Origin: a virus
Virus record (IMG/VR): IMGVR_UViG_3300028581_000233
Span: 1-24,630 of that record
Length of the DNA: 24,630 nt
Direction: 5' to 3' (one strand)
Positions 2,842 to 24,630 of this stretch are shown in pieces (position 1 is the stretch's first letter; each line of letters begins with the position of its first letter). A program made the position numbers and the translations under genes. The notes under the pieces were generated by a model, which was given only the letters and a program-made list of their open reading frames with translations, did not search any database and had not been told where the DNA came from.

Positions 2842-3459
2842 ATGGAAAAAAAAATAACAGAAACTAAAGGAACTATTGAATTAAAACTTATCAATGCAAA
2901 TCCTAATAACCCAAGAACAATCAAAAAAAATCAGTTAGAAAAACTGAAGAAATCAATTAGTGAGTTTCCTGAAATGTTAGAACTACGCCCCCTCGTAGTA
3001 GATGAAGATATGGTAGTGTTGGGGGGAAATATGAGATTAAAAGCACTCAAGGAATTAAACTTTACACAAGTTCCTTATATTCAAGTTTTAGGATTGACTG
3101 ATGAACAGAAACAACAATTCGTTATTAAAGACAATGTAAACTACGGAGACTGGGATTGGGGTGTTTTACAAAATAGTTGGAACGTTGATGGTTTAGGTGA
3201 TTGGGGTTTAGATGTTCCTGAATGGGTTATTGATGGGGACACAGAACCCGAGATTGATTTAGACGAACTTGACCAAGCGTTAAACAAATATATTGATGGT
3301 AAGATAAAACAAATCACTTGTTATTTTGATACTAAAGAATATGACGTTATGATTAAAAAGTTGGAATATATCAAGGATAAAGAAAAACTTGAAAACCATA
3401 CAAAAGTATTACAATATCTAACTGAACTTTATGGTGAGGTGAATAAACTAAACAACTAA
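2842..3459 (+). CDS. ParB/Srx-fold domain protein of the DNA-modification island
   Basis: 205 residues. Residues about 12-95 match the ParB N-terminal (ParB/sulfiredoxin) fold: a strand with NPNNPRTIKKNQLEKLKKSI, the segment RPLVVDEDMVVLGGNMRLKA with the GGNxR nucleotide/phosphate loop at 61-65, then LNFTQVPYIQVLGLTDEQK. The rest is acidic followed by a helical tail, with no ParB HTH domain. Such stand-alone ParB domains in phages usually sit next to DNA methyltransferases or base-modifying enzymes, as here. Its role could be sequence targeting, nuclease or NTPase activity. Start chosen at the ATG 25 bases after the previous stop, with an A-rich leader. Its stop overlaps the next ATG by one base. 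Confidence 0.8.
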   Translation: MEKKITETKGTIELKLINANPNNPRTIKKNQLEKLKKSISEFPEMLELRPLVVDEDMVVLGGNMRLKALKELNFTQVPYIQVLGLTDEQKQQFVIKDNVNYGDWDWGVLQNSWNVDGLGDWGLDVPEWVIDGDTEPEIDLDELDQALNKYIDGKIKQITCYFDTKEYDVMIKKLEYIKDKEKLENHTKVLQYLTELYGEVNKLNN

Positions 3460-4199
3460 TGAGTGTGGTAAAAGAAAAATTATCATTTAATGACTTTTCA
3501 AGTGAGATTATAAAATCGGGGGATATTGACCCCGATTATATTTTCCTAAAAAATCATTTAGATAAGTTTGGTCGGGATGAGACAATTGAATTGTTTAAGA
3601 AAAAACTTTTGATTTATAATCTTGAATCAGAACTGTTATATCACACAGGTCAAATAACACAAGAAGAATTAAAGTTTGGTGCGGAACGTAGAAAACAAAA
3701 AAGATATTTTAGTAAGTGGGAACAAAAATTACAAAAGGTAGATTTTGATAAGGTTATGAAAACTTTTGACGGAGCTGACTATTTGGTATTTCGTGAGTTT
3801 TTTATAACATTAGAAGGTATGGGTAATTGGGCAAGTTGGAAGGCTGCGGATATTATGAATAAAGTTTTTGGTGTTACTTTTCATTTTGACGAAATGACTT
3901 TTCTTAACGCATATGAATATCCACTCAAAGGTTTATTGATGATAAATAATGAAACTGAAGATATTAAACTTTATAGGAATACAGAACTATTCAAGGAACA
4001 TATCCAAAACGCATTTAACATATCTAAAAACGTTCCTAATGGATTCTTTTTCAACACGGGGGACTTACTTACTCTTGAAACTTGTTTGTGTAAATACCAC
4101 TCCTATAAACACGGGAAATACAATATTGGTGAAGACCTCCATAGAATAATGGAAATCAACAATAATCCAAGGTTACAAAAATATTGGGGTTTAATATGA
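3459..4199 (+). CDS. Alpha-glutamyl/putrescinyl-thymine pyrophosphorylase-like protein (aGPT-Pplase)
   Basis: 246 residues, alpha-helical. Two motifs point to the aGPT-Pplase family (clade 3 type, from memory). The first is GMGNWASWKAADI at 120-132, a helix-hairpin-helix-like turn related to DNA glycosylases. The second is ETCLCKYHSYKHGKY at 207-221 followed by a GED motif. In thymidine-hypermodifying phages these enzymes displace the (pyro)phosphate from 5-phosphomethyl-dU in DNA with the amino group of an amino acid or polyamine. The N-terminal third is less typical. The gene sits in an ATGA-overlapping chain with a flavoenzyme, the kinase that would make its substrate, and a dioxygenase, which strongly supports the assignment. 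Amino donor is not readable from sequence. Confidence 0.75.
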   Translation: MSVVKEKLSFNDFSSEIIKSGDIDPDYIFLKNHLDKFGRDETIELFKKKLLIYNLESELLYHTGQITQEELKFGAERRKQKRYFSKWEQKLQKVDFDKVMKTFDGADYLVFREFFITLEGMGNWASWKAADIMNKVFGVTFHFDEMTFLNAYEYPLKGLLMINNETEDIKLYRNTELFKEHIQNAFNISKNVPNGFFFNTGDLLTLETCLCKYHSYKHGKYNIGEDLHRIMEINNNPRLQKYWGLI

Positions 4200-5032
4200 A
4201 AATAAAACATTTGATTTTAGGTAAAGGTTTTATGGGACTATCGGTATACGGGGCAATTAAGGATACTGACAAAAAAATTATATGGAACTACAAACCAGAG
4301 TCAGCATCCAAAAGTGCTGCAGGGATACTCACGGAGAGTTGGTATACAGCCTCAACAATTAGGGGTCAATACAAATATCCCTTTACAAGAGAAATGGTAA
4401 CCAACGGAATAAAGTTTTTGACTGAAAACGGGGCAATACTTTTACAAGAAGACGAGTTAAGAATAAATGAAGTCAACGTAGGTTCAGAAGTAAAAGTCAG
4501 TAAAGATACTTGGCTCCTATGGAATAAAGATGAATATTTAGATTCTCCAACAGAAACAATTCAAGAAACTATATTAGATATTGATTTTGTAAATAAAAAA
4601 GTTGAGACAACAAATGGTATTTACGAGGCTGAAAATCTTTATGTTTGTTTAGGGATAAACTTATTGGACTTTACAAAAGAAATACCCTTGAGACCAAGAT
4701 TGGGTCAAGCACTGTTTATTGATGACTCTGACCAAACTTTAAGAACTTATTATACCTCACCCTATACACACTTTACCTTAAGACCTTGGGGTAACGGCAA
4801 GGTTAGAATTGGTGATACAACCAGTAAAACACATTTACCATATATCCTAAAAAGATTTGGTAAGGGGGAAATAACAAAGGGGGTTAGACCAGCTCCTATA
4901 AAAGACGGACTAATTTATCACAAATTAAAAAACACACACATTTTTACAAGTGGTGGTAGAGTTGGTTTTGGTTTGAGCGGTATGGTAGGTTATTATTTCC
5001 AAGATTTAATAGACAATAAAATACAATTTTGA
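4196..5032 (+). CDS. FAD-dependent oxidoreductase/lyase, glycine-oxidase (DAO) type
   Basis: 278 residues from the ATG at 4196, chosen over 4184 because it forms an ATGA overlap with the preceding stop and puts the nucleotide-binding strand at the N-terminus. Residues 5-16 (HLILGKGFMGLS) contain the GxGxxG dinucleotide loop. SKSAAGIL (38-45) matches the 'AAG' FAD contact of D-amino-acid/glycine oxidases. The C-terminus has GVRPAPIKDG (229-238) and the FAD-closing TSGGRVGFGLSG (251-262). In hypermodifying phages such a flavin-dependent lyase trims amino-acyl thymine, for example N-alpha-glycinyl-thymidine to 5-aminomethyl-dU. That role is inferred here from the neighbouring kinase and aGPT-Pplase-like genes. 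It is shorter than cellular glycine oxidases (about 360-370 residues), so the substrate-binding domain is reduced. Confidence 0.8.
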   Translation: MKIKHLILGKGFMGLSVYGAIKDTDKKIIWNYKPESASKSAAGILTESWYTASTIRGQYKYPFTREMVTNGIKFLTENGAILLQEDELRINEVNVGSEVKVSKDTWLLWNKDEYLDSPTETIQETILDIDFVNKKVETTNGIYEAENLYVCLGINLLDFTKEIPLRPRLGQALFIDDSDQTLRTYYTSPYTHFTLRPWGNGKVRIGDTTSKTHLPYILKRFGKGEITKGVRPAPIKDGLIYHKLKNTHIFTSGGRVGFGLSGMVGYYFQDLIDNKIQF

Positions 5033-5033
5033 T

Positions 5034-5516
5034 ATGCAGGTATATTTGGTAATTGGGGAATGTGGTGTTGGTAAAACTTGGTTGATGAAAAAACTTATTG
5101 ATTACCTTGAAACTAAAAACAGGGCTAAAGTCGGTAAGGTAAAGTTCAACCTAAATAAAGAAAAAAATATTTATATTTTAGGAAACTATGACGGTTCTAT
5201 GTATGAAGGGAGTGATAAACTATCTATGGCTGTAGCCGGTGATTTTGAGTTTTTTTATCACTATCTAAAAACAACAAACAACCCAATTGTTATTTGTGAA
5301 GGTGATAGATTTACAAATAAAACTTTTATTAATATGTTCAAACCAACTATAATAAAAATAAACGGAGATGGTTCAACAGGTCGTGAATTAAGAAAATCTA
5401 CACAAACCCCCCGTCAATTAAAAAGTATTGCCACACGAGTTAGAAATATTAGTGAAAATATAACTTTTGATAATAGTGAAAAAACTTTTGAGTTTTTCCA
5501 AAAAGAAATAATATAA
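5034..5516 (+). CDS. P-loop kinase, 5-hydroxymethyl-dU DNA kinase-like
   Basis: 160 residues. Walker A is GECGVGKT at 8-15. LGNYDGSMYEGSDKLSMAV (49-67) holds the 'G-YDG---EG-D-LSMAV' signature I associate with phage DNA-base kinases. ICEGDRF (87-93) is the Walker B-like strand with an acidic pair. The C-terminal part is basic (RELRKSTQTPRQLK). The predicted reaction is ATP-dependent phosphorylation of 5-hydroxymethyl-deoxyuridine within DNA, activating the base for the aGPT-Pplase. One base separates it from the flavoenzyme gene and two from the dioxygenase gene. Kinase identity is firm; the DNA-base substrate rests on the motif and neighbourhood. Confidence 0.8.
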   Translation: MQVYLVIGECGVGKTWLMKKLIDYLETKNRAKVGKVKFNLNKEKNIYILGNYDGSMYEGSDKLSMAVAGDFEFFYHYLKTTNNPIVICEGDRFTNKTFINMFKPTIIKINGDGSTGRELRKSTQTPRQLKSIATRVRNISENITFDNSEKTFEFFQKEII

Positions 5517-5518
5517 AT

Positions 5519-6418
5519 ATGAAAAGGTTAGATTTACAATTTAAGGAAATTGATATTGCCAAGTTTAAGAAAAGAACGGCACTTTTGAGTGATGTTAAAA
5601 ATATGATAAAAGATGATGTAATAATTTATGTTGATAATCAACCAGTCTTATTGTATAAAAATATTAAAGAAAATACTGACGATTTAAGATGGGCGGTTAA
5701 GAATATAGATTATGTGGAAGGTAAAAGAACGAGGGGTCTAAAATCAACATCAGCAATATTTGGATACTCACCAAGAATTGCTATGAGGCATGACTATTGC
5801 ACCATAACAAGTATGGCGGAAAAACACCCTAAACAACATCATATTATATCAAACTATATTAGAAGAGTTATACAATATTACGAACAATATTTCCCTGAAA
5901 TATTTGAACAACATAAAGATATAGTATATGAAAAAGTTTTAGATGAATGGAAAATTGGTAACACCCCTTTTACGTCAGGCATTGTAAATAAAAATAATCA
6001 ATTGAAATATCATTTTGATACTGGTAATTTCAAGGGTGTTTTATCTAATATGGTTGTATTCAAGAAGGGAACATCAGGGGGGCATTTAGTTATACCTTCT
6101 TTAGATTTAGCCCTTGAGGTGTCAGACAATAGTTTAACAATATTCAACGGACAAGATATTTTACACGGAGTATCCCCAATTGAATACGATACTGAAACAG
6201 GTTATAGATATTCTGTAGTATATTATTCTTTAGAGCAAATGTGGAAGTGTGAACCTTTAGGTGATGAAATTGATAGAATAAGAAATGTGAAAACACAACG
6301 GGAGATTAATAGGTTAGACCAAGACCACCTTAACAAACTGTCAAAAAGTGCTGATAGTTTAAGTAAGTTTGTAGAGAACGAAAAAAAAATAAAAAAGGAA
6401 AAGAACAATATAAAATAG
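5519..6418 (+). CDS. TET/JBP-family 2-oxoglutarate/Fe(II) dioxygenase
   Basis: 299 residues. The double-stranded beta-helix core is clear: H165-x-D167 in LKYHFDTGN, distal His H216 in DILHGVSPI, and the 2-oxoglutarate-binding Arg R230 in GYRYSVVYYS, 14 residues after the distal His. Upstream conserved stretches (SAIFGYSPR at 78-86, NTPFTSGIVN at 148-157) and SNMVVFKKGTSGGHLVIPS (176-194) match phage-type TET/JBP oxygenases. The last 50 residues are a Lys/Glu-rich helical tail. These enzymes oxidise the 5-methyl of a pyrimidine in DNA. With a 5-hmdU-type kinase and an aGPT-Pplase next door, and no visible 5-methylcytosine methyltransferase, thymine is the favoured substrate. All metal and cosubstrate residues are intact, so it should be active. 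Confidence 0.85.
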   Translation: MKRLDLQFKEIDIAKFKKRTALLSDVKNMIKDDVIIYVDNQPVLLYKNIKENTDDLRWAVKNIDYVEGKRTRGLKSTSAIFGYSPRIAMRHDYCTITSMAEKHPKQHHIISNYIRRVIQYYEQYFPEIFEQHKDIVYEKVLDEWKIGNTPFTSGIVNKNNQLKYHFDTGNFKGVLSNMVVFKKGTSGGHLVIPSLDLALEVSDNSLTIFNGQDILHGVSPIEYDTETGYRYSVVYYSLEQMWKCEPLGDEIDRIRNVKTQREINRLDQDHLNKLSKSADSLSKFVENEKKIKKEKNNIK

Positions 6419-6679
6419 ATGAACGAAAAACAAGAACAATTCATTAAAGAATTATCAAGTTCATTAGGTATAGTTTCTGTTGCATTACAAAAGTCAGACA
6501 TTACAAGAACTGAACTTGACAGTTGGAAAAACAATATGGAGTTTCAAGAAGAGGTAAAAAAAGTTAATGAGATGTGTTTAGATTTTGTTGAAAACAAATT
6601 GATACAACAAATCAACTCGGGGGAATTGCCAGCAATCCAATTCTATCTAAAAACCAAAGGTAAAAAAAGAGGTTATTAA
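6419..6679 (+). CDS. Short HTH protein, terminase-small-subunit-like
   Basis: 86 residues. It begins MNEKQEQFIKELSSSLG and contains a helix-turn-helix (about 16-36: IVSVALQKSDITRTELDSW), a helical middle (EEVKKVNEMCLDFVENKLIQQI) and ends AIQFYLKTKGKKRGY. This is the typical order of HTH small-terminase or phage DNA-binding proteins that share the terminal 'FYLKTKGKKRGY' motif. Usual members continue for tens of residues with a 'VERQE'-like tail. This one stops right at the motif, so it is C-terminally short, perhaps lacking the large-terminase-binding part. It starts one base after the dioxygenase stop (TAG then ATG) and precedes the methyltransferase and large terminase. Confidence 0.65.
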   Translation: MNEKQEQFIKELSSSLGIVSVALQKSDITRTELDSWKNNMEFQEEVKKVNEMCLDFVENKLIQQINSGELPAIQFYLKTKGKKRGY

Positions 6680-6680
6680 A

Positions 6681-7844
6681 ATGATTGATATAAGATTGGG
6701 GGATTGTTTTGAGTTGATTAAGGACTTACCTGATAACTCTGTGGATTTGGTAATCACCAGTCCACCCTATGCAGATATTGTAAATTATGGTATAAACATA
6801 TCAATTAAAAAACCTGGTGAGTATTGTGATTGGTTATTACCCCTATTCAATGAAATACAGAGGGTTCTTAAACCAAGTGGTAGTTTCATACTAAACATCA
6901 ATGATAATTGTTCTAATGGGTTAAGAAACCCGTTTATCTATGAATTGATATACCGCAGTCAAAAGGAAACAAAGTTAAAGTTTTATGATACCTACATCTG
7001 GCATAAGAAAAATGGTATTCCAAATGGTAGTAAAAAACGATTTAGGAATAACACAGAGTTTATATTCCATTTTGTTAAGAACCAAAAGGAGTTAAAGTTC
7101 TATATGGATAGGGTAATGAAAGATGGTGCTGAATCTTACAATGAAAGAAAGAAATACGCATGGAAAGTAGCCAATCACGGATTTACCGAAGATGGTATTA
7201 GATTAGATAAAAAATTTATTGATGGTAGTAATTTACCCGATAAAGTTAGACCTGATAATGTATTCAGGTTTCCAACAGCAGGATTAGCAAGGGATAATAC
7301 CATTAGACACCCTGCTCCATATCACAAAGAATTACCCACATATTTCATCAATTTACTAACAGATGAAGGTGATACTATCTTGGATGTATTCAGTGGAATA
7401 GGGACAACAGGATTGGGGTGTAATGATAGAAATTACATAGGGTTTGAGTTAAATGAGAAATACGCAGAGTTCTCAAAGAAAAGATTAAGTGGTGAAGAAC
7501 TTGAAGATTGGTTGGTATGCCAGTATGACTTGGATGATAACCTGATTGCTTGTTATAAGAACAGGATGGAAGCAGAGAAGGCAACAGGTGTAAATAATAT
7601 GGATATAATGAGAACCTACAACAGAACCAAGTTTAATAGTCGTGGGGGTTATAAATGGAAACTACAAAGGAAGTATGTAATCAACCAATATGACCTAAAT
7701 GATACATTTGTTCGTAGTTGGGATACAATCACACAGATTGAATCTGAACTTGGATTTGATAGTCACAACCATATTGAAGATTGTATTAGAAAAGGAAATC
7801 AAACCAGTTATGGTTATAAATGGAAATTAGAACAAAGAATATGA
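6681..7844 (+). CDS. Beta-class DNA methyltransferase fused to two NUMOD1-like repeats
   Basis: 387 residues. Catalytic motif IV TSPPY at 26-30 precedes SAM-binding motif I (ILDVFSGIGTTGLG, 233-246), the beta-class order used by amino-methyltransferases (N4-cytosine or N6-adenine; TSPPY slightly favours N4C). Downstream, residues about 278-329 and 332-385 are two related repeats of the form 'QYDL-D--------A-----G--------------GYKWKL', resembling NUMOD1 DNA-binding modules of homing endonucleases. The fusion may give extra DNA contacts or sequence specificity. No cognate restriction enzyme is visible, so self-protection or regulation is likely. Starts one base after the HTH gene; its stop overlaps the terminase start (ATGA). 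Confidence 0.85.
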   Translation: MIDIRLGDCFELIKDLPDNSVDLVITSPPYADIVNYGINISIKKPGEYCDWLLPLFNEIQRVLKPSGSFILNINDNCSNGLRNPFIYELIYRSQKETKLKFYDTYIWHKKNGIPNGSKKRFRNNTEFIFHFVKNQKELKFYMDRVMKDGAESYNERKKYAWKVANHGFTEDGIRLDKKFIDGSNLPDKVRPDNVFRFPTAGLARDNTIRHPAPYHKELPTYFINLLTDEGDTILDVFSGIGTTGLGCNDRNYIGFELNEKYAEFSKKRLSGEELEDWLVCQYDLDDNLIACYKNRMEAEKATGVNNMDIMRTYNRTKFNSRGGYKWKLQRKYVINQYDLNDTFVRSWDTITQIESELGFDSHNHIEDCIRKGNQTSYGYKWKLEQRI

Positions 7845-8992
7845 AGATACAAACAACAATTGTTTTTGATGAGTTATTAAAATCTGACGCAGAAGACAAG
7901 AGAATTGTTGTTGCTCAAGGGGGGTCTCGTTCTGGTAAAACTTATAACATTCTAATCTATTGGGTTTATAAATTATTACAAGAAGAAAACAAAACCTTAT
8001 CAATTGTTCGTAAAACTCTACCAGCGTTAAAAAACTCTGTATTAAAAGATTTACAAGAAGTGTTAGAATTATTCGGTCTATGGAATGATAAAGACTGGCA
8101 CAAAATGGAGGGATACTTCAAGATTGGAACAAACACTATCAATTGGTTCTCTATTGACGAACCACAAAAGTTAAGGGGGAGTAAAAGAGATTACCTATAT
8201 TGTAACGAAGCAAACGAACTAAAAATTGAAGACTGGAACCAACTTATATTTAGAACAACAGATAAAGTTATATTGGACTTGAACCCGTCAGAATTATCTT
8301 GTTGGGTTTATGATTTAGAAAAAAGAGAAGATTGTTTTTATTTCAAGACAACTTGGAAGGACAATCCCTTCGTAGATAAGAATATTATAAAAGAATTAGA
8401 ATCGTTAAAGTATAAAGATGAAAACCTTTATAGGATTTATACTTTAGGAGAAAAAGGTATACCAACAACATTAGTATTCAACACATATAACACAATACAA
8501 AATATTCCTGAATATGCAAAACTGTTAGGGTATGGTGTGGATTTTGGATACAATGACCCATCAACTTTAGTGGCGGTATATCAAAACGGGGAAGAACTTT
8601 ATTTTGAGGAAAAGTTATTTGTAAGGAACCTAACAATACAAGATTTTATTTACAGAATAAAAGAAGAACAAATAAATCAAACAGATTATATTTGGGCGGA
8701 CTCCGCATCACCACAAGCCATAGAAGAAATACGTAGAGAGCGGTTTAATATCAGGGGGGTAAATAAAAAATCAATCCTACACGGAATAGACCTTGTTAAA
8801 AGACATAAAGTTTTTATAACAGAGGCATCACAAAATATATTACGGGAGTTTCAATCGTATAAATGGAAAACCGATAAAGACGGCAAACTCCTTGACGCTC
8901 CCGAAGATAAAGACAACCATACCATAGATTCAATAAGATATGTATTAGAATCAACTGTTGGTAATAAACAAAAGAAATTCAGTTTCGTATGA
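7841..8992 (+). CDS. terL: Terminase large subunit (packaging ATPase/nuclease)
   Basis: 383 residues from the ATG at 7841, chosen over 7820 because it makes an ATGA overlap with the methyltransferase stop. The ATPase domain has Walker A GGSRSGKT (27-34), a Walker B-like strand DYLYCNEAN (117-125) with the catalytic Glu at 123, and the coupling segment DLNPS. The RNase H-like nuclease domain has GVDFGYNDPS (D234), WADSASPQ (D287) and HTIDSIRY (D363), consistent with a complete Mg-dependent nuclease triad. The protein pumps DNA into proheads and cuts the concatemer. Length is normal for a terminase_3-like protein. This is one of the most secure calls in the window. Confidence 0.95.
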   Translation: MKIQTTIVFDELLKSDAEDKRIVVAQGGSRSGKTYNILIYWVYKLLQEENKTLSIVRKTLPALKNSVLKDLQEVLELFGLWNDKDWHKMEGYFKIGTNTINWFSIDEPQKLRGSKRDYLYCNEANELKIEDWNQLIFRTTDKVILDLNPSELSCWVYDLEKREDCFYFKTTWKDNPFVDKNIIKELESLKYKDENLYRIYTLGEKGIPTTLVFNTYNTIQNIPEYAKLLGYGVDFGYNDPSTLVAVYQNGEELYFEEKLFVRNLTIQDFIYRIKEEQINQTDYIWADSASPQAIEEIRRERFNIRGVNKKSILHGIDLVKRHKVFITEASQNILREFQSYKWKTDKDGKLLDAPEDKDNHTIDSIRYVLESTVGNKQKKFSFV

Positions 8993-9794: not shown

Positions 9795-10351
9795 GTAATG
9801 TAATGAATCAATATACAACCTTCCACAAGGTTTTAGATTATCTACAATATTTTCAAGAACAATCCCCCATAGTCAATTCTTTTGGTTATGGTAATCTTGT
9901 TGATTTTGGAAAAAATATATCAGGTAGTTCTGTAAATTACCCCTTCTTATTTGTTGTTCCACAAGCAATAGAATATCAAGAAAATATGACCGTATATTCT
10001 GTTACGATGATATTTGCGGATATTCTTAATTGGGATTTATCAAATGAAAAAGATTGTGTAAGTGATATGAGTTTACAGGCACGTAGATTTTTATCTTATA
10101 TTAAAAGGGGTATGAATACTTCACCTGAAATATATGATAATATTGATGTCAATTTTCCTCTAACCGCACTACCGTTTTTTGAGAGATTTGGAGACCACGT
10201 AGCCGGTGTTGCTCTTGAGGTTCCTTTAATAGTTTATGATACAATAGATGCTTGTGATTATTACCCAACCCCAACGCCAAGCATATCATCAAGTCCTACA
10301 CCAACAATAACTCCTACACCAACAATAACACCTTCAATAACCCCTCCATAA
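9791..10351 (+). CDS. Tail-terminator/neck-like structural protein with C-terminal PT tract
   Basis: 186 residues. The body (1-157) has a compact alternating strand pattern (SVNYPFLFVVPQAIEYQEN, SVTMIFADILNWDLSNEKD, MSLQARRFLSYIKRG, FFERFGDHVAGVALEVPL). This fits the small proteins found with the HK97-gp10-like gene in Bacteroidota phages, probably a tail terminator or head-tail joining protein. From residue 159 on it is a Pro-Thr/Ser-Ile tract (YYPTPTPSISSSPTPT and further). The tract could be an exposed flexible arm on the virion. Start overlaps the previous stop (ATGA); the next gene begins one base after its stop. Function by context; the fold is not assigned. Confidence 0.65.
   Translation: MSNVMNQYTTFHKVLDYLQYFQEQSPIVNSFGYGNLVDFGKNISGSSVNYPFLFVVPQAIEYQENMTVYSVTMIFADILNWDLSNEKDCVSDMSLQARRFLSYIKRGMNTSPEIYDNIDVNFPLTALPFFERFGDHVAGVALEVPLIVYDTIDACDYYPTPTPSISSSPTPTITPTPTITPSITPP
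10265..10348 (+). repeat. Pro-Thr codon repeat (C-terminal arm of neck-like protein)
   Basis: About 28 codons made almost only of CCA/CCT, ACA/ACC and ATA/TCA, encoding a PTPT/ITPT tract. The repeat is in frame and ends at the stop codon. Similar tracts occur in the 10925-12595 gene and in the partial gene at the right edge. Confidence 0.8.
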
Positions 10352-10925: not shown

Positions 10926-12595
10926 TGTCAATTACATTTCAATCAACCCCAGCGGAGTTTCAACCTGTTTTATCTGACGGTATATTTTTCACCCTATCAT
11001 CAAACACCTATAACACACTATCAACATTCAAGTTTAAATTCAACTATAACTTATTTGTAGAAGATGTATTGGTTTTTGCTGGTAAATGTTCCCCAAACCC
11101 CTATGGATTAGGTATTGTTGATTTACAACAAATATTAGAAACCTACACAGATTCTTTACCTATATCTTATTGGGATACAACCCCTATTTATACACATCAA
11201 ACATTTCCGTTCTCAAGACCTGCAAATGAAGAGGTTATAAATTATTACTTGAAGGTGGGGTATGAATTTGCGGATAGTGAAATAAGTCCGGTAACCGGAT
11301 ATACAGGATACGGTAATTCTGTTGGAGACCCTGCAGTTCAAACACAAGTATACAAGGTATTCCGTTCAACTATGGGAACTAACCCAAGAGCCACACAACA
11401 GAGTTTTAACATAGACCCATATATTTTATCAGGATTACCACAAGGGGTATATCCAACAACATCAGGATTATTTCTAACAAACGCACCACGTATTTTAGAT
11501 GTGTTAGATACTGACTATTTTACTTTAGGTTTTACTAACTATTACCTGTGGAGTGGACAAACTTCAGGATTTAGTCAAGGGTATTATGTTGAATATAACT
11601 TTTATGATGACCAAGGCGCATTACTATCAGCAACCACCTATGATAATATTACAACAAATGGGGGAGGTCCAAGAACTAATTGTAATTTAGTTTATCAAAA
11701 CCTTTATTTGATTGAGCCTGTTTCAGCCGCTACAGATTGGAACACTATGTATGTTGCTGCAGGTCCGGCTAATTTACCACAAATCCCAAATGGAACGGTT
11801 CAATATACAGTTCAACTATTCGGGAACTTTACAGGAACTACAAGTCCTATCTTACCATCACCTACGCCAACCCCTACACAGTTCTTAACACCAACCCCAA
11901 CACCAACACCGTCATCAACCCCTGCGGGAATCTGTTCAGGTTGCACCGAGTATCAAATAACATACACGGGAGAATCCGTAGCGAGTGTTACAATAATAAA
12001 TTGTTACACACAACTAGCACAAAATATTCTAATTCAACCTAATTTAGTTTACAATGTATGTTCTTGTGAATTCCCAGTTACTGAAGTAGAAATGCAAATC
12101 TTAACAGGAGGTCCTTGTGGTCCCCCAATCACACCAACTCCAACCCCAACTCCAACTAATAGTTGTATTTGTGTAGAATATCTTGTTACAAATGATACCT
12201 TAATTACTGACTTTATACAATACATAAACTGTCTTGGTATTCCAACTACATATGGTTTAGCTGGTAATTCCGCAACCACAATTTGCGCATGTGAGGGAAC
12301 AATAGTAACTGAATACTCAACTGTTAGTGAATTAGGTCCTTGTGTTCCTCCATCTCAAACTCCTACAAGAACCCCTACTAAAACTCCTACACCAACACCA
12401 ACACCAGGGTGTGTTTGTATTGAATACCAAATTGACTCAGAGCGAGAAGATGTAACTACAGTATCTTACATTGACTGCGAGAATCAAGCGCAATTTGACT
12501 CACTACCTGGATTTGGAACCCTAATAATTTGTGCTTGTGAAGGTTCTGTTAATGTTGAAGGTGGTGTTTCTATTACTAACTTAGGTCCTTGTTAA
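10925..12595 (+). CDS. Virion structural protein with PT linkers and three six-Cys domains
   Basis: 556 residues. Residues 1-305 are beta-rich (for example STFKFKFNYNLFVEDVLVF, GLGIVDLQQILETY) and resemble tail proteins of Bacteroidota phages, probably surface-exposed tail or receptor-contact components. Residues 311-334, 402-411 and 479-494 are PTPT tracts. Each leads into a domain of about 60 residues with the Cys pattern C-x1/2-C-x19-C-x17/18-C-x-C-x16/17-C: Cys 337/340/360/379/381/398, 414/416/436/454/456/473 and 496/498/518/536/538/556. Beads-on-a-string domains with conserved Cys suggest disulfide-stabilised adhesin-like modules. Protein function is inferred from position and architecture. 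Confidence 0.7.
   Translation: MSITFQSTPAEFQPVLSDGIFFTLSSNTYNTLSTFKFKFNYNLFVEDVLVFAGKCSPNPYGLGIVDLQQILETYTDSLPISYWDTTPIYTHQTFPFSRPANEEVINYYLKVGYEFADSEISPVTGYTGYGNSVGDPAVQTQVYKVFRSTMGTNPRATQQSFNIDPYILSGLPQGVYPTTSGLFLTNAPRILDVLDTDYFTLGFTNYYLWSGQTSGFSQGYYVEYNFYDDQGALLSATTYDNITTNGGGPRTNCNLVYQNLYLIEPVSAATDWNTMYVAAGPANLPQIPNGTVQYTVQLFGNFTGTTSPILPSPTPTPTQFLTPTPTPTPSSTPAGICSGCTEYQITYTGESVASVTIINCYTQLAQNILIQPNLVYNVCSCEFPVTEVEMQILTGGPCGPPITPTPTPTPTNSCICVEYLVTNDTLITDFIQYINCLGIPTTYGLAGNSATTICACEGTIVTEYSTVSELGPCVPPSQTPTRTPTKTPTPTPTPGCVCIEYQIDSEREDVTTVSYIDCENQAQFDSLPGFGTLIICACEGSVNVEGGVSITNLGPC
11855..12592 (+). repeat. Three tandem PT-linker + six-Cys domain repeats
   Basis: Three in-frame modules, each a Pro-Thr codon tract followed by a domain ending in a Gly-Pro-Cys codon triplet (at 12116-12118, 12341-12343 and 12590-12592 for the final Cys). 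The DNA is only loosely repeated except at the PT tracts and a GGTCCTTG block before each end, so the duplications are old or fast-evolving. On the minus strand the linkers give short GG runs (GGTGTTGGTGTTGG type). Confidence 0.75.
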
Positions 12596-15757: not shown

Positions 15758-18700
15758 ATGGCTAATAACGTAGCATATACAATTCAAGTTGATACCTCCA
15801 AGGCGGTAAAAGATATAATTGCACTTGAAGAACAAATCGCAATATTAAAAAAAGAACTTGTAGGGTTAAAGGAAGGAACTGAAGGTTTTGATACTTTGTC
15901 TTCAGCAATAAAAGGTCTTGAATCAAACTATAATAATTTAATACAGACCGCAGAAAAGTCGGGTGATATTGTTGTAAAATCTGCAGATGAGAGCGCAGAA
16001 GCGGTAAAGGCTGTAGGAACTGCAGCAACTAATACAGAAAAAAGTATTGGTAAGTTAGGTGAAAAATCAAAGAAAATAGACCTATCACAACCCTTTAAGA
16101 ATGTTGTAAAGATAGGGGCTGCGGTTACAGCATCTTTTGCTGCAGCACAATCTGTTTTTACTGTATTTGGCGCAGACAGCACAAAAATAGCTGAAGCTTC
16201 GGCTAAAGCACAGGCTCTTTTGACTGTGGCAATTGCTGCACGGGAGGCTGCAGAGGCGGTTGGTGCTGGTACAACTTTATCAGCAACAATAGCCACCAAA
16301 CTAAAAACAGCTGCAGACAATACACAAATTACAGTTCTAAAAAGGTTATACACACTTTTAGCTAATAATCCATATGCGATTATTGCAGTTGGTGTAGGGT
16401 TATTAGTAACAGCATTTATTGCTCTAACTAACGCTACGGACGATGCAACAAAAGCACAAGAAGAGTTCCAAAAAGGAATTGATACTGAAGTAGGTAAAGA
16501 AGTAACAAATCTAAATATATTAATTTCTACAATCAACGATACTACACAATCAATAGAGGCTAGAAAAAATGCTTTAGAAACATTAAAATCAAAGTTTCCT
16601 AGTTATTTCAAGGATTTAAAAGATGAAGATATATTGTCAGGTAAAGTAAAAATCTCTACAGATGAATTGACTAAATCTATTATTGCTCAAGCTCAAGCAC
16701 GTGCATTACAAGGTAGAATTGAAGAACGAGCTGTTCAACTTTTAGATATAGAGAGAAAATTATTAAAAACAAAACAAGACAGGATTAAAGCTGAAAAAGA
16801 ATTCAATCAAACACAAAATGTTATTATTAGTGGTGGTGCAACTGCAGGAGGTTTTACCGCTACAGGAGATTTAAGAAACGCAGCACAAGACAAATATCTT
16901 GGATTATTAGATAAAGAGAACGAACTCAAAAACGAACAAAACGACATCAATGTTGCTAACGCAATTGATATGTCTAAAATATTAGATTTAACAAAACAAA
17001 CAGGTTCAGCACTAAAAATTGAAGGTGATAATCTTAATGACGTTAATAAAGCCACTAAAGAACAAATAGCTTTAGCTAAAGAACTTGAAAACGCATTAAA
17101 CGACCAACTTGTAAGTTTAGAGGATACTGCAGATGTGTTTAGAAAATTAGGGGAAGCTGGGGGTTTTCAATTTCCAGACCCTGAAGTATTGACGAGAATC
17201 AAAGAATTAAAAAATAATATTGAAGGTCTTATACCAGAAGATTTAGCGGATAAGTTTAAGAAAATTGGTTTGGATATTATTATAAAGGATGGGACTTATG
17301 AGATTAAAGAACTTGGAAATGAAGTAAAAAATCTTGAAGATATATTTGGTAACTTTATTGAAGAGACAAGGAAGGAATTAAGTAGTAGAGTTTTTTTACA
17401 AACCATAGATGAATTTGCTAATACTTCAGCAAGAATATTAAAAGATACTTCTGACCTATTACAAAAAGGTCTTATAACTAAAGTTGCATTTGATTCTGCA
17501 GAAAAACTTATAAATCAATATAAGGATTTAAACAGGATAATAACTGAACTACCTGAAGGGGTAAGACAGGTTTTTACTAAAGGTCGTATTGAAGAATACT
17601 TGGATATTACAAAACAATTATCAATAGCCACAGGTAAAATTAAATATGAAAAAGTGAACGGACAAATTGTTGAAATAAAGAACTCAACAGTTGACCTTAC
17701 AAAAGAAACTGAAAGATTAGTCGCATTCCAAAAAAGTTCACTTGAAGCTTTAATAAAACTTTATGAGGCTCAATTCAAGATTAAAAACAATGATAGAGAA
17801 CTTACTCGTAAACAATTTTTGGCTGAAATAGAAAATCTAAAAACGTTAGGTAAACTAACAGAGGAAGATGCGGACAAGTTAAGTGCAAGGGTTAAAGATA
17901 CGGGAGCTGACTTTACAAAACTTATTAAAGAAATTGCTGAAGCACAACTAAAAGCCTTAAACAATACGGTTCAAAATATTATTGCTGAAGAAACACAAAT
18001 TAGAGCATTTCTTTTTGAGATTCAACAAGACAGAATAGAAGCACTAAAAATACAAGGTGAAGCGGAAAAAAGAATATTACTCAACAATCTTGAAGATGTG
18101 TTTAAGATAACACAAACTCAAAATGCTATAAATATTGATGCAACAAAAACAAAGGAAGAACAAGTAGTCAGTTTATTAAAACAATTTGCCGATAAGAAAA
18201 TTGACCTTACTTCATTAACAGAAGAAGAACAATATAAAATTGTATTATTTTATTTAGGTAAACAAAAAGAAGCTGTTGACCAAGCACAAAAAACAAGACA
18301 AGAACAAGTTGATAAGTTTGTTGAGGCTATCCAACAAATACAAATGGTTCTGAACTCACTATCACAAACCTCAACAGCCTTTTTCAATCAACAATTTGAC
18401 ACTTTAGAAAAAAGATATAAAAGAGTAACTGATGGTATAACCGGTGATTCAAAAAGAAGTGCAGAGTTAAGAATTGAAGCTGAAAAGGCATACCAAGCTG
18501 AACGTGAGAGGTTAGAGAAAAAGGCGGCTAAAACATCTTTAAGAATAGCATTAGCACAATCCTTAGCAAACACGGCTGAAGCGGTAAGTAAAACAGTGGC
18601 GGTATATGGTGGAACACCTTTAGCTATCGGTGCAGCTGCAGCGGTCGCTGTTTTGAGCGCAGCACAAACAGCAATAATTGCACAACAATTAGCGAATATT

Positions 18701-19042
18701 GATTCTTACCGAAAAGGTGGTAGAATTAAAATGGCTGGAGGCGGACTTGTGCAAGGAAAAAGTCACGAATATGGAGGTGTTAAGTTTCAGGGTGGGGGAA
18801 TAGAACTTGAAGGTAACGAATCTGTTATTAATAGGGTCTCAACGATAAACTATATGGGATTGTTAAGTCAAATAAATCAAGCTGGAGGTGGTAAACCTAT
18901 AGGTCCTGGTTTTGATGACTCAAGAATTGTAGAAGCAATTGCAAAACAGAGGAACACACCAATCAGGGCATTCGTTGTAGAATCAGACATAACACAAAAA
19001 CAAACAACAGCTAAAAAAATACAAGAATTAGCTTCGTTTTAA
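15758..19042 (+). CDS. Tape measure protein
   Basis: 1094 residues, the longest gene. The N-terminal coiled coil (LEEQIAILKKELVGLKEG, SSAIKGLESNYNNL) is followed by a hydrophobic Ala-rich section around residues 115-230 (VVKIGAAVTASFAAAQ; NNPYAIIAVGVGLLVTAFIA is a likely membrane-active segment). Long charged coiled coils follow, with a second Ala-rich stretch near 940-985 and a Gly-rich C-terminus (KGGRIKMAGGGLVQGKS; NQAGGGKPIGPG). This architecture is diagnostic of tape measure proteins that set tail length and enter the host envelope during DNA ejection. A tail of about 160 nm would follow from the common 1.5 angstrom per residue rule (estimate only). No lytic domain is evident. Confidence 0.9.
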   Translation: MANNVAYTIQVDTSKAVKDIIALEEQIAILKKELVGLKEGTEGFDTLSSAIKGLESNYNNLIQTAEKSGDIVVKSADESAEAVKAVGTAATNTEKSIGKLGEKSKKIDLSQPFKNVVKIGAAVTASFAAAQSVFTVFGADSTKIAEASAKAQALLTVAIAAREAAEAVGAGTTLSATIATKLKTAADNTQITVLKRLYTLLANNPYAIIAVGVGLLVTAFIALTNATDDATKAQEEFQKGIDTEVGKEVTNLNILISTINDTTQSIEARKNALETLKSKFPSYFKDLKDEDILSGKVKISTDELTKSIIAQAQARALQGRIEERAVQLLDIERKLLKTKQDRIKAEKEFNQTQNVIISGGATAGGFTATGDLRNAAQDKYLGLLDKENELKNEQNDINVANAIDMSKILDLTKQTGSALKIEGDNLNDVNKATKEQIALAKELENALNDQLVSLEDTADVFRKLGEAGGFQFPDPEVLTRIKELKNNIEGLIPEDLADKFKKIGLDIIIKDGTYEIKELGNEVKNLEDIFGNFIEETRKELSSRVFLQTIDEFANTSARILKDTSDLLQKGLITKVAFDSAEKLINQYKDLNRIITELPEGVRQVFTKGRIEEYLDITKQLSIATGKIKYEKVNGQIVEIKNSTVDLTKETERLVAFQKSSLEALIKLYEAQFKIKNNDRELTRKQFLAEIENLKTLGKLTEEDADKLSARVKDTGADFTKLIKEIAEAQLKALNNTVQNIIAEETQIRAFLFEIQQDRIEALKIQGEAEKRILLNNLEDVFKITQTQNAINIDATKTKEEQVVSLLKQFADKKIDLTSLTEEEQYKIVLFYLGKQKEAVDQAQKTRQEQVDKFVEAIQQIQMVLNSLSQTSTAFFNQQFDTLEKRYKRVTDGITGDSKRSAELRIEAEKAYQAERERLEKKAAKTSLRIALAQSLANTAEAVSKTVAVYGGTPLAIGAAAAVAVLSAAQTAIIAQQLANIDSYRKGGRIKMAGGGLVQGKSHEYGGVKFQGGGIELEGNESVINRVSTINYMGLLSQINQAGGGKPIGPGFDDSRIVEAIAKQRNTPIRAFVVESDITQKQTTAKKIQELASF

Positions 19043-19064
19043 CAACAAAAAGTATTTATAGAAA

Positions 19065-21824
19065 ATGTATAGAATAATTGAACTTGATATAGACACGGAC
19101 TTATCGGGAGATACAGGTGTTTTTGAGGTGGCTTGGGTGGAATACCCAGCAATTGAACAGGACTTTATGTATTTTGGAGAACAAAAGTTTTATAGGGCTC
19201 CTGATAATGTTGCATCCAAGGCTTGTAGGGCGATAAAAGAAAATGAAAAAAGGGGAAACCCTGCGTCAACACAGGTAGGAAAAGTTCGTGGTCAACAATT
19301 GTGTAACCGTGATGAAATATCTTTAGAGACAATTAAAAGAATGAAATCATATCTATCAAGGGCTGCAGAATATTACACTGGTGACTATGACGACAACGGA
19401 ACAATTGCCTATGATTTATGGGGTGGTAAGCCAGCTTTAGATTGGGTTGATTCTATTTTGGATAATGAAGAAAATATGGGAATCCAAGATTTCGTTTATC
19501 CAAAACCTGAAGAAGATAAAAATGATTTTATATCAAGGTGTATTTCTTATGTTATAGACGAAGGTAAAACACCGGAACAAGCTGCGGGTCAGTGTTACGG
19601 AATGTGGGATAATAGGGAGTTTGCTGAAGTCGGTCCAAGAGGTGGAATAAGAGAGAGTAAAAAAGCTCCCAAGTCAGATACACCAAACAAAAACCCTCAA
19701 GGTAAAGGGTCGGCTAAAGGGGACGCATCTACTACAAGGGGTGCGAAGGTTACAGAAGAACAAGAAAAAACATTACAAAAAAAGGTTGATGATTTCAACG
19801 AAAAAGAATCAAATACCAAAAATGGTAGAGCAACACTTGGACAACTAAAATCAGTATTTCAACGGGGACTTGGAGCATTCACCACTTCACACAGTCCAAG
19901 AGTTAAGTCAGCGGAGCAATGGGCTTATGCAAGGGTCAATGCATACTTATTTTTACTCAAGAACGGGAGACCGCAGAACCCTAAATATAAACAGGACAAC
20001 GATTTGCTCCCCTCCTCACATCCAAAAAAACAAGATTTCTCACCAACAAAAGTATCTTTTGATTGGGATAATACTTTAGAAACTGACAGAGGTAAAAAAC
20101 TATTAGAGCAAGAATTATCAAGGGGGTCTTTAATTTATATTATATCAGCAAGAAATATGCCAACAAAAGAAATGTTTGATTTAGCATTGAAGTATGGTAT
20201 TCCTGCAACACATATTTTTACTACTGGAAGTAATCCTGAAAAAATAGAAAAGGTAAAAGAATTAGGAATAAAAAGACACTACGACGATAACTTTAATGTT
20301 GTAAGAGATTTAGGTGGTGTAGGTATCAATTTTGATTATGATACAAGTGGTTTACCGGCATATGACAATTATCCAACAAGTGGTGAAACTGATAGTATGT
20401 TGATAGAACCTGAACTCCCCCCTGTTTTGTTTGACCAATCACAATTTGAACTAAACATATTTGGATACAATACCAAGTATTTTTATATTTGTCCTGGTGC
20501 AATTTCAACATTCACACACCTTGTGGAAATGAACCCTGATGATGAAACTAAAGGTATGATAAGGTCAGCCGCACAAATTGCAGATAATGTATTTGAGATT
20601 GAAGCTGATGTTATTGAAGATGAAGAAGCAAGTGTAGGTCAAGTTATGGAAGCACAGGTCTTGGTAGACGATTTCAAGGACTTAATGGGGGAGATTGATA
20701 AGTTGGTTGGTATGGAGCACGATGTGTCTTATATGGACGGGCACGTTGTAAAAATCAGTTCATATCTAACTGACGAATATACAACAGAGGAGTTTGCAAG
20801 TTTAGAGTTATTAAAGTTCCTTGCTGAAACTGATTACCAAAAGTTTGAATCGGTTATGGGTTCTTTACGGGGTGCAACAGAATCACAGATAATGCAAAGG
20901 AAACACGATAAACCTGTATTTTATTTCAAGTATGATAGGGTTATGAGTGGATTCCCTGATAGAGATTTCTGTATGTCTATAGAGGACAGATATTTCCGTA
21001 GATTTGAAATAGATTTACTGGACGATACTAATAAGGAGTTTGGGCACAACGGGCAAGGATATAGCAAATGGGATTTCAAGGGAGGTCCAGAATGTGTCCA
21101 CGCTTGGAGAAGATTTATTTATACTCCTGCAGAAAAAAACAGAGATGCAAAACTAAAAGATTTAGGTATGGTTCCCGGTAAACCAGGAACAGCACCACAG
21201 GCTATGCAAGGAAGAGGCTATTACCCTGGCACCCCAAGATATGAAGCCGCTGTAAGTCGTGGTGGATTTTCAATGTCTTATATGGAAAATATAGATTGCA
21301 CGTTTGGAAACTTATGTAAAGTCAATTTTAACGAACAACAACTATTTTCAACTCAAGACGAGGAGAGAATGATTTACACTCCCCTAATGATACCTAATAT
21401 TCTAATACCAAGATTTGACGAAACATCACAAGAAAAATACTATGTAAAGTTCAAGCCTGAAGTTATTAAAAATATTAGGGATAAGTTCATGACCGAGTTA
21501 AGAAACAGAAAAACTAATCTTGAACATACCAATCGTAAGTTTGAAGATATTGTAATGGTTGAAACTTGGATTGTTCAGGGGGAACAAGATAAATCTTATG
21601 AATTAGGTTTTACACAAGAACAAATACCCATTGGAACTTGGATGGGTGCATACAAAGTTCTTGATACTCCCGAAGGAGATATGGTTTGGAATAACTATAT
21701 CAAACCTGGTAAGGTTAAAGGTGCGAGTGTTGAAGGAAACTTTATACTCAACTTTTCCAGTGAGAAAACTGATGAATATTTATTAGAACAAGTTATAAAC
21801 ATATTAAAAAAAATAACTGATTAA
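19065..21824 (+). CDS. Multidomain head protein: HAD-like domain and C-terminal XkdF-type prohead protease
   Basis: 919 residues. (a) Residues 16-37 (FEVAWVEYPAIEQDF) resemble the start of XkdF-like prohead proteins. (b) Residues 48-131 hold a small alpha domain ending IAYDLWGGKPALDWV. (c) Residues 188-316 are a basic segment (KAPKSDTPNKNPQGKG) and QRGLGAFTTSHSP with YARVNAYLFLLKNGRPQNP, a DUF5824-like module. (d) Residues 327-416 are a HAD-like domain with D333-x-D335, S361 in IISAR, K393 and DDN at 407-409. (e) About 617-685 lies a Cys/His domain with ECVHAWRRF. (f) From about 815 on is the XkdF/S78_2 type protease with candidate H821 and S888 (KVKGASVEGNF). The protease would mature the capsid; the HAD role is unknown. 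Gene lies immediately before the scaffold and capsid genes. Confidence 0.75.
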   Translation: MYRIIELDIDTDLSGDTGVFEVAWVEYPAIEQDFMYFGEQKFYRAPDNVASKACRAIKENEKRGNPASTQVGKVRGQQLCNRDEISLETIKRMKSYLSRAAEYYTGDYDDNGTIAYDLWGGKPALDWVDSILDNEENMGIQDFVYPKPEEDKNDFISRCISYVIDEGKTPEQAAGQCYGMWDNREFAEVGPRGGIRESKKAPKSDTPNKNPQGKGSAKGDASTTRGAKVTEEQEKTLQKKVDDFNEKESNTKNGRATLGQLKSVFQRGLGAFTTSHSPRVKSAEQWAYARVNAYLFLLKNGRPQNPKYKQDNDLLPSSHPKKQDFSPTKVSFDWDNTLETDRGKKLLEQELSRGSLIYIISARNMPTKEMFDLALKYGIPATHIFTTGSNPEKIEKVKELGIKRHYDDNFNVVRDLGGVGINFDYDTSGLPAYDNYPTSGETDSMLIEPELPPVLFDQSQFELNIFGYNTKYFYICPGAISTFTHLVEMNPDDETKGMIRSAAQIADNVFEIEADVIEDEEASVGQVMEAQVLVDDFKDLMGEIDKLVGMEHDVSYMDGHVVKISSYLTDEYTTEEFASLELLKFLAETDYQKFESVMGSLRGATESQIMQRKHDKPVFYFKYDRVMSGFPDRDFCMSIEDRYFRRFEIDLLDDTNKEFGHNGQGYSKWDFKGGPECVHAWRRFIYTPAEKNRDAKLKDLGMVPGKPGTAPQAMQGRGYYPGTPRYEAAVSRGGFSMSYMENIDCTFGNLCKVNFNEQQLFSTQDEERMIYTPLMIPNILIPRFDETSQEKYYVKFKPEVIKNIRDKFMTELRNRKTNLEHTNRKFEDIVMVETWIVQGEQDKSYELGFTQEQIPIGTWMGAYKVLDTPEGDMVWNNYIKPGKVKGASVEGNFILNFSSEKTDEYLLEQVINILKKITD

Positions 21825-24221: not shown

Positions 24222-24630
24222 ATGAAGTGGAACGGAAGAAGTTATAGACCCGCAGGTGCACAATTTATCACAAAGAAAAAACCTTTTGATTTTCAAGAGG
24301 CGTTAAAGCCATATGGTGAAAAAGAATTGCCTGTATGGAGTTCTGTTGTTAGTGTTAATAATGAAGTTCCCGCATCACCTGTACCAACATCATCACCTAC
24401 CCCAACACCAAGTATTACTCCAACACCTACACAAACACCAGGTGCGAGTCCAAGTCCGACTTCAACAGTAACCCCAACGGTTACTCCTTCAATATCGGTT
24501 TCTGTTACTCCAAGTTTAACACCAAGTATTACCCCAAGTATTAGTCCTTCAGTTAGTCCAACTATTACTCCATCTGTATCCGTATCTGTTAGTCCAAGTT
24601 TAACACCGACAACAACACCTACAAATACAC
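24222..24630 (+). CDS. PT-repeat structural protein, 5' part
   Basis: An ATG at 24222, 16 bases past the terminator T run, opens a frame of 136 codons that is still open at the window end. The first about 48 residues are an ordered basic/aromatic segment (MKWNGRSYRPAGAQFITKKK, then PFDFQEALKPYGEKELPVWS). From residue 50 (24369) onward the product is almost only Pro, Thr, Ser, Val and Ile in PTPT, SPSP, ITPS and VSVS units. It is probably an exposed virion protein with a long flexible stalk, like those in the 9791 and 10925 genes. The short A-rich leader AATTATAAAAT precedes the start. The domain carried by the stalk lies outside the window. Confidence 0.75.
   Translation, partial: MKWNGRSYRPAGAQFITKKKPFDFQEALKPYGEKELPVWSSVVSVNNEVPASPVPTSSPTPTPSITPTPTQTPGASPSPTSTVTPTVTPSISVSVTPSLTPSITPSISPSVSPTITPSVSVSVSPSLTPTTTPTNT
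24369..24630 (+). repeat. Pro-Thr/Ser codon tract, runs off the window
   Basis: At least 87 codons built mostly from CCA/CCT, ACA/ACT/ACC, AGT and ATT, with imperfect internal repeats. One is a near-duplicate 'SVSV(T/S)PSLTP' unit whose core GTTACTCCAAGTTTAACACC-like DNA occurs twice (near 24507 and 24588). Repeat length changes by recombination are likely. Confidence 0.8.

Follow-up and report, generated by a model that had tools for sequence, protein, structure and literature searches.

The closest known systems to the locus described here are found in actinophages (Gordonia CaiB/Wooper, Rhodococcus Tonitrus, Mycobacterium Phelemich and Microbacterium Kozie/MO526). Genes 1–5 of these phages overlap, precede the terminase, and encode a ParB-like protein, a TET/JBP dioxygenase, a PF18724 transferase, a kinase of the Ploopntkinase3 family and a flavin adenine dinucleotide (FAD)/Rossmann protein. 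The transferase and kinase families, and in PaMx11 also an FAD lyase, are likewise present in PaMx11/M6 (Mesyanzhinovviridae). We analysed a complete IMG/VR virus record of 24,630 bases (IMGVR_UViG_3300028581_000233), which is itself a genome fragment; this whole stretch, with its 61 open reading frames (ORFs), is called the window below. At 2842–8992 on the plus strand it carries genes for a ParB-like protein, an amino acid:DNA transferase (ADDT), an FAD protein, a P-loop kinase, a TET/JBP protein, a small terminase-like protein, an N4/N6-type DNA methylase and the terminase large subunit (TerL). We conclude, with a probability of about 0.77, that this block holds a phage thymine-hypermodification operon starting from TET. 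A preliminary description of this DNA had taken the contiguous set for a self-contained variant of the known pathway. The set is not novel: actinophage ParB, TET, transferase and kinase genes, with or without the FAD enzyme, are already annotated beside the terminase and have been described (PMC9302106, PMC11955845), and the window is a new Bacteroidota-type member of a known cassette type.

Gene block and family assignments

Four co-directional, nearly abutting ORFs were found at 3459–6418, as the preliminary description had reported:

3459–4199, plus strand: ADDT (older name aGPT-Pplase2), 246 aa, predicted glycinyltransferase; PF18724
4196–5032, plus strand: FAD-dependent enzyme, 278 aa, flavin-dependent-lyase/glycine-oxidase-like; PaMx11 gp47-family profile
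5034–5516, plus strand: P-loop kinase, 160 aa, Ploopntkinase3-related, predicted 5-hydroxymethyldeoxyuridine (5hmdU) DNA kinase; profile and fold
5519–6418, plus strand: TET/JBP Fe(II)/2-oxoglutarate dioxygenase, 299 aa; PF12851

The first base of the ADDT gene is also the final base of the ParB stop codon. The FAD gene likely starts at ATG 4196 rather than TTG 4184, and from this ATG on it shares 4 nt (ATGA) with the end of the ADDT gene; the kinase and TET genes start 1–2 nt past the preceding stop. Relative loci, designated by L-numbers, were collected from IMG/VR (80 with TET as the query and 11 with ADDT). The window ADDT, FAD protein and kinase are 50–64% identical to their counterparts in L084 and the differences fall mostly at third codon positions, hence the reading frames are conserved.

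All four family calls of the preliminary description (transferase, FAD enzyme, kinase, TET) are supported by profile matches with controls. ADDT matches PF18724 above the curated cut-off (E 1.5e-8, 35.1 bits versus 26.2); the earlier 'aGPT-Pplase-like' label was therefore right as to family and dated as to name. Its sequence matches in PDB include 25qc (E 7e-6) and 8z2m, which is PaMx11 gp46 deposited as 'Glycinyltransferase', and residues D22, D24, P25, Y53, R77, G122, E207, T208, L210 and C211 are invariant across 13 relatives. By analogy with the 8z2m/8z2n relative, ADDT would transfer an amino acid, most likely glycine, onto activated 5hmdU. TET also scores above the curated cut-off of its family (PF12851, E 2e-12, 46.9 bits versus 34.9), and its HxD motif (H165, D167), H216 and R230 are invariant across 15 relatives. 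A TET query of genome contigs returned no host or prophage copy.

The kinase matches PF18751 weakly (E 0.006, 16.5 bits, under the curated cut-off of 27). We built a profile from kinases of actinophage TET operons, several of which are strong PF18751 members, and the window kinase was its sole match among the window ORFs (hmmsearch, E 8e-12); hhalign against the actinophage kinases gave a probability of 98 and a score of 87 (shuffle maximum 18.9). The AlphaFold model is confident (predicted local distance difference test, pLDDT, 83.5), and its Foldseek matches include nucleoside/nucleotide kinases and the annotated 5-hmdU DNA kinases of SP10 and PhiW-14. Profile searches thus place the 246- and 160-residue proteins in PF18724 and with hypermodification-operon kinases, not in unrelated families. 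In public records (phrog_800; RefSeq actinophage gene 2; PaMx11 gp49) kinases of such operons are labelled 'terminase small subunit' and the TET proteins 'queuine tRNA-ribosyltransferase'; both labels look like mis-annotations.

The FAD protein falls slightly under the cut-off for PF01266 (DAO; E 4.7e-6) and carries GxGxxG and C-terminal GG motifs. With a profile of PaMx11 gp47 (PDB 8z2o, 'Flavin-dependent lyase') and its relatives, it was the only match among all window ORFs (hmmsearch, E 6e-18), and hhalign aligned it with this family over ~240 residues (probability 98.5, score 106; maximum 22.6 over 100 column shuffles, cross-control 13.5). No significant match was obtained by plain phmmer against PDB or by tblastn against phages, and pairwise BLAST with Wooper gp5 gave no match. 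The FAD profile matched Tonitrus gp8 weakly (E 1.7e-5) and Wooper gp5 not at all; we therefore make no claim that gene 5 of the Gordonia operon encodes this enzyme.

Substrate of TET and the proposed pathway

We scored 16 complete ADDT-bearing phage genomes for TET (PF12851) and for thymidylate-synthase/dUMP-hydroxymethylase (PF00303). TET without PF00303 was found in six (Wooper, Tonitrus, Kozie, Phelemich, LilMcDreamy, MO526), PF00303 without TET in the remaining ten (Sonora, PaMx11, M6, PhiW-14, Pam3, RHph_TM26, P26218, CN2, RHph_I65, ctpVu19). The split is complete (Fisher test, P-value 1.2e-4, ignoring kinship). This mutual exclusivity suggests two routes to 5hmdU and points to thymine as the probable TET substrate. 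No thymidylate-synthase-like ORF is evident in the window.

What we observe is which genes are present, the families they belong to, the conservation of active sites and of synteny, the mutual exclusion of TET and dUMP hydroxymethylase, and slot swapping (see below); the enzyme activities, the order of the reactions, the amino acid, the final base and the biological role of the cassette are what we infer. The chemistry proposed after 5hmdU is modelled on the PaMx11 relatives and on the thymidine hypermodification pathway reportedly published by Lee (2018, 2022) and Wen (2024). TET/JBP would hydroxylate certain thymines of replicated phage DNA at the methyl group to give 5hmdU, and the P-loop kinase would phosphorylate the new hydroxymethyl group. 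ADDT would then exchange this phosphate for an amino acid, glycine being the likeliest, after which cleavage of the glycyl adduct by the FAD enzyme would yield positively charged 5-aminomethyl-dU, which should block host restriction. Phages without the FAD gene would stop at an earlier product, and since this gene is missing in some phages, the family probably makes several bases. The earlier pathway logic, hydroxymethylation followed by decoration of thymidine, is supported by the family assignments and by the pairing of transferase and FAD enzyme as in PaMx11 (gp46 glycinyltransferase, gp47 flavin-dependent lyase). The title of Wen et al. 2024, as cited in PMC11946847, links the PaMx11 enzyme work to Na-GlyT and 5-NmdU.

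Several points weigh against this pathway, and some of them suggest a different substrate. The experimentally shown phage TET activity, as relayed by papers citing Burke 2021 (PMC11404850, PMC12730594), is on 5-methylcytosine (5mC), and a TET acting on 5mC would lead to aminoacylated hydroxymethylcytosine instead of a modified thymine. In L086 (contig IMGVR_UViG_3300032223_001894) a full C5-cytosine methylase match lies at 18291–19151 of a phage that also has TET and ADDT, making this the one relative with a plausible cytosine route; the L026 contig has a sub-threshold match to the same family (PF00145). The window, moreover, is a 24.6-kb fragment, and a C5-methylase or a dUMP hydroxymethylase may lie elsewhere in the genome, so calling the pathway 'self-contained' was an overstatement. 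The TET-positive complete genomes are all actinophages and possibly one lineage. Nevertheless, we consider a cytosine substrate unlikely: PF00145 is absent from the window, from the three complete TET- and transferase-bearing genomes tested (Wooper, Tonitrus, Kozie) and from most TET fragments; the relatives of known structure, for both transferase and lyase, belong to a thymidine pathway; and in transferase-bearing phages TET stands in for the dUMP hydroxymethylase-like gene.

With thymine as the substrate, the end product could still differ from 5-aminomethyl-dU. The FAD enzyme is only distantly similar to the solved lyase, with no significant PDB match, and AlphaFold gave an unusable model for it (4-sequence input, pLDDT 41). 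The FAD gene is absent from L086, L087 and L090–L092, and L077 adds acetyltransferase (GNAT) and amidotransferase genes, so end products probably vary among relatives. A pathway that ends with the amino-acid adduct or another amine, or an FAD enzyme that works as an oxidase and leaves some other group, is thus possible, although the less probable outcome; the long profile match to the gp47 family and the enzyme pairing common to the window and PaMx11 argue for the lyase. A further point against the main reading is that a related kinase is also present without the transferase in Terij and Serendipitous. The weakness of the generic P-loop and DAO Pfam matches would speak for a nucleotide-metabolism kinase and an amino-acid oxidase lying beside TET by chance. 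Such a coincidence is highly improbable, given that matches to the dedicated family profiles remain significant when set against shuffles and cross-controls. Chance neighbours were rejected as a candidate, as the same gene sets recur in unrelated phages in varied orders.

The ParB–TET slot and the terminase neighbourhood

The predicted thymine-hypermodification genes are flanked as follows:

2842–3459, plus strand: ParB-like protein (ParB N-terminal domain), 205 aa; PF02195, phrog_620
6419–6679, plus strand: small terminase (TerS)-like helix-turn-helix protein; weak phrog TerS matches (E 1e-3), syntenic in most relatives
7820–8992, plus strand: TerL, context marker; PF04466 (E 8e-23)

The ParB-like protein matches phrog_620 with E 2e-23 and PF02195 with E 5e-5, under the Pfam cut-off. 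ParB lies 5' of TET in 76 of the 77 loci that extend over 1500 nt upstream; the remaining one is a short self-fragment. This directly upstream gene is a member of the unit. Because ParB is constant whichever decorating enzymes adjoin it, it probably acts with TET or with DNA.

The commonest order in relatives is ParB, one gene, TET, TerS, TerL, and the tested examples of the lone gene match the TET-associated glycosyltransferase (TAGT) family PF20691. The order ParB-ADDT-FAD-kinase-TET is found in the window, L084 and L085; L086 and L087 combine ADDT with a different P-loop kinase, and L088 and L090–L092 have ParB-TET-ADDT-(FAD)-kinase. We surveyed 71 loci with a single gene in the slot between ParB and TET. 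Where the TETs of two loci are 90% identical or more, ParB has a median identity of 94%, whereas the slot proteins are less than 30% identical in 46% of such pairs. The slot proteins form six clusters at 35%; several groups among them are GT-A-like, and a further group (L011, L037) is apparently unrelated to these. Near-identical flanks around unrelated slot genes were found in 93 pairs. In one of these, L036 (3273–4055) versus L046 (3949–4665), the slot genes cannot be aligned and the exchange ends exactly at the ParB end and the TET start codon, DNA identity being 92.8% through the ParB end and 94.5% from the TET start codon on. A comparable swap separates two mycobacteriophages: Serendipitous has TAGT and a PIG-L deacetylase, Phelemich has ADDT and an FAD protein, and the two are 80% identical in ParB, 83% in TET, 90% in terminase and 66% in the kinase.

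The window and L084 share only 35% identity in TET, over part of its length, and 34% in TerL; the higher identity of the transferase/FAD/kinase trio indicates that trio and TET have reassorted. A tree of 90 TETs requires five slot-type changes and places the window TET among glycosyltransferase-type TETs, its exact position being poorly supported. In these related contigs the ParB–TET gap is a swappable slot: flanks with 93–95% DNA identity enclose unrelated glycosyltransferases, and the trio is another occupant. In T-even phages, the glycosyltransferase type is exchanged at a syntenic position (PMC13390438).

Other gene sets were also seen. At L077:3185–5605, the genes after TET encode a class II glutamine amidotransferase domain, a GNAT acetyltransferase, a kinase and a different ADDT, a set that may make another modified base; the TerL of this locus is the closest to that of the window (73%). 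In L089:969–5675, TET occurs with two ADDTs and further unidentified genes, which resembles a longer pathway. Microbacterium phage Terij (L095:1–3804) lacks both the transferase and a glycosyltransferase; its set consists of just ParB, TET, the kinase and terminase, and its product is possibly phosphorylated 5hmdU. In Mycobacterium phage Serendipitous (L094:1773–3654), which has no ADDT, TET is accompanied by TAGT, a kinase and a PIG-L de-N-acetylase, and this suggests an amino-sugar decoration.

TerL is 3' of TET in 56 of the 58 loci with more than 2 kb downstream. The cassette had been placed between the small and large terminase genes: TerL is indeed downstream, but the TerS side is uncertain, as the TerS-like gene conserved in relatives (6419–6679) follows TET and a second weak TerS-like gene lies at 2100–2534. 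The window TerL is nearest to those of Flavobacterium phages (38%), and a Shine-Dalgarno-like motif precedes only 1 of 22 genes tested; both fit a Bacteroidota host, in agreement with the origin proposed earlier. A DNA methylase of the N4/N6 type that ends in a NUMOD1 tail (6681–7844; PF01555, E 1e-41) separates TerL from the preceding small terminase-like gene, and none was seen at that position in the relatives examined. Pro/Thr-rich repeats (PTPTPTP, PSITPS) occur at 10260–10351, 11900–12500 and 24360–24630, at the ends or in the interiors of three virion-region proteins.

Comparison with known systems

The window extends TET-started thymine hypermodification from actinophages to Bacteroidota-type phages, and makes thymine hydroxylation in DNA by some phage TETs a testable claim, one that is unsettled in the literature examined. 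We put forward, at about even odds, a broader model in which such TETs are DNA thymine hydroxylases replacing dUMP hydroxymethylase post-replicatively, and ParB–TET forms a fixed platform by the packaging genes on which whole decoration modules, either glycosyltransferases of various kinds or the transferase/FAD/kinase trio, are swapped. The exclusivity and the swaps between near-identical flanks suggest that phages may change their DNA chemistry via one-module replacement, which, if true, matters for restriction evasion and for the discovery of new DNA-modifying enzymes.

Compared with the actinophage operons, the window differs in gene order (ParB-transferase-FAD-kinase-TET versus ParB-TET-transferase-...) and belongs to a low-GC Bacteroidota-type phage whose proteins are 22–34% identical to the actinophage set. 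PaMx11/M6 likely share the same chemistry past 5hmdU, but make 5hmdU at the nucleotide level with a dUMP hydroxymethylase-like gene, have no TET, and carry additional acetyltransferase and pyrophosphorylase-like genes. The M6/ViI-type parallel drawn in the preliminary description thus holds downstream of hydroxymethylation and fails at the entry step, for which M6/PaMx11 use the thymidylate-synthase-like enzyme. Phages with TET and TAGT share the ParB, TET, TerS and TerL neighbourhood, and their TETs are 55–70% identical to that of the window; their slot, however, holds a glycosyltransferase in place of the transferase/FAD/kinase trio. Finally, in kinetoplastid base J synthesis a JBP dioxygenase hydroxylates thymine in DNA before a second decoration, as predicted for the window, but that system is eukaryotic and ends in glucosylation, with no kinase and no amino-acid transfer.

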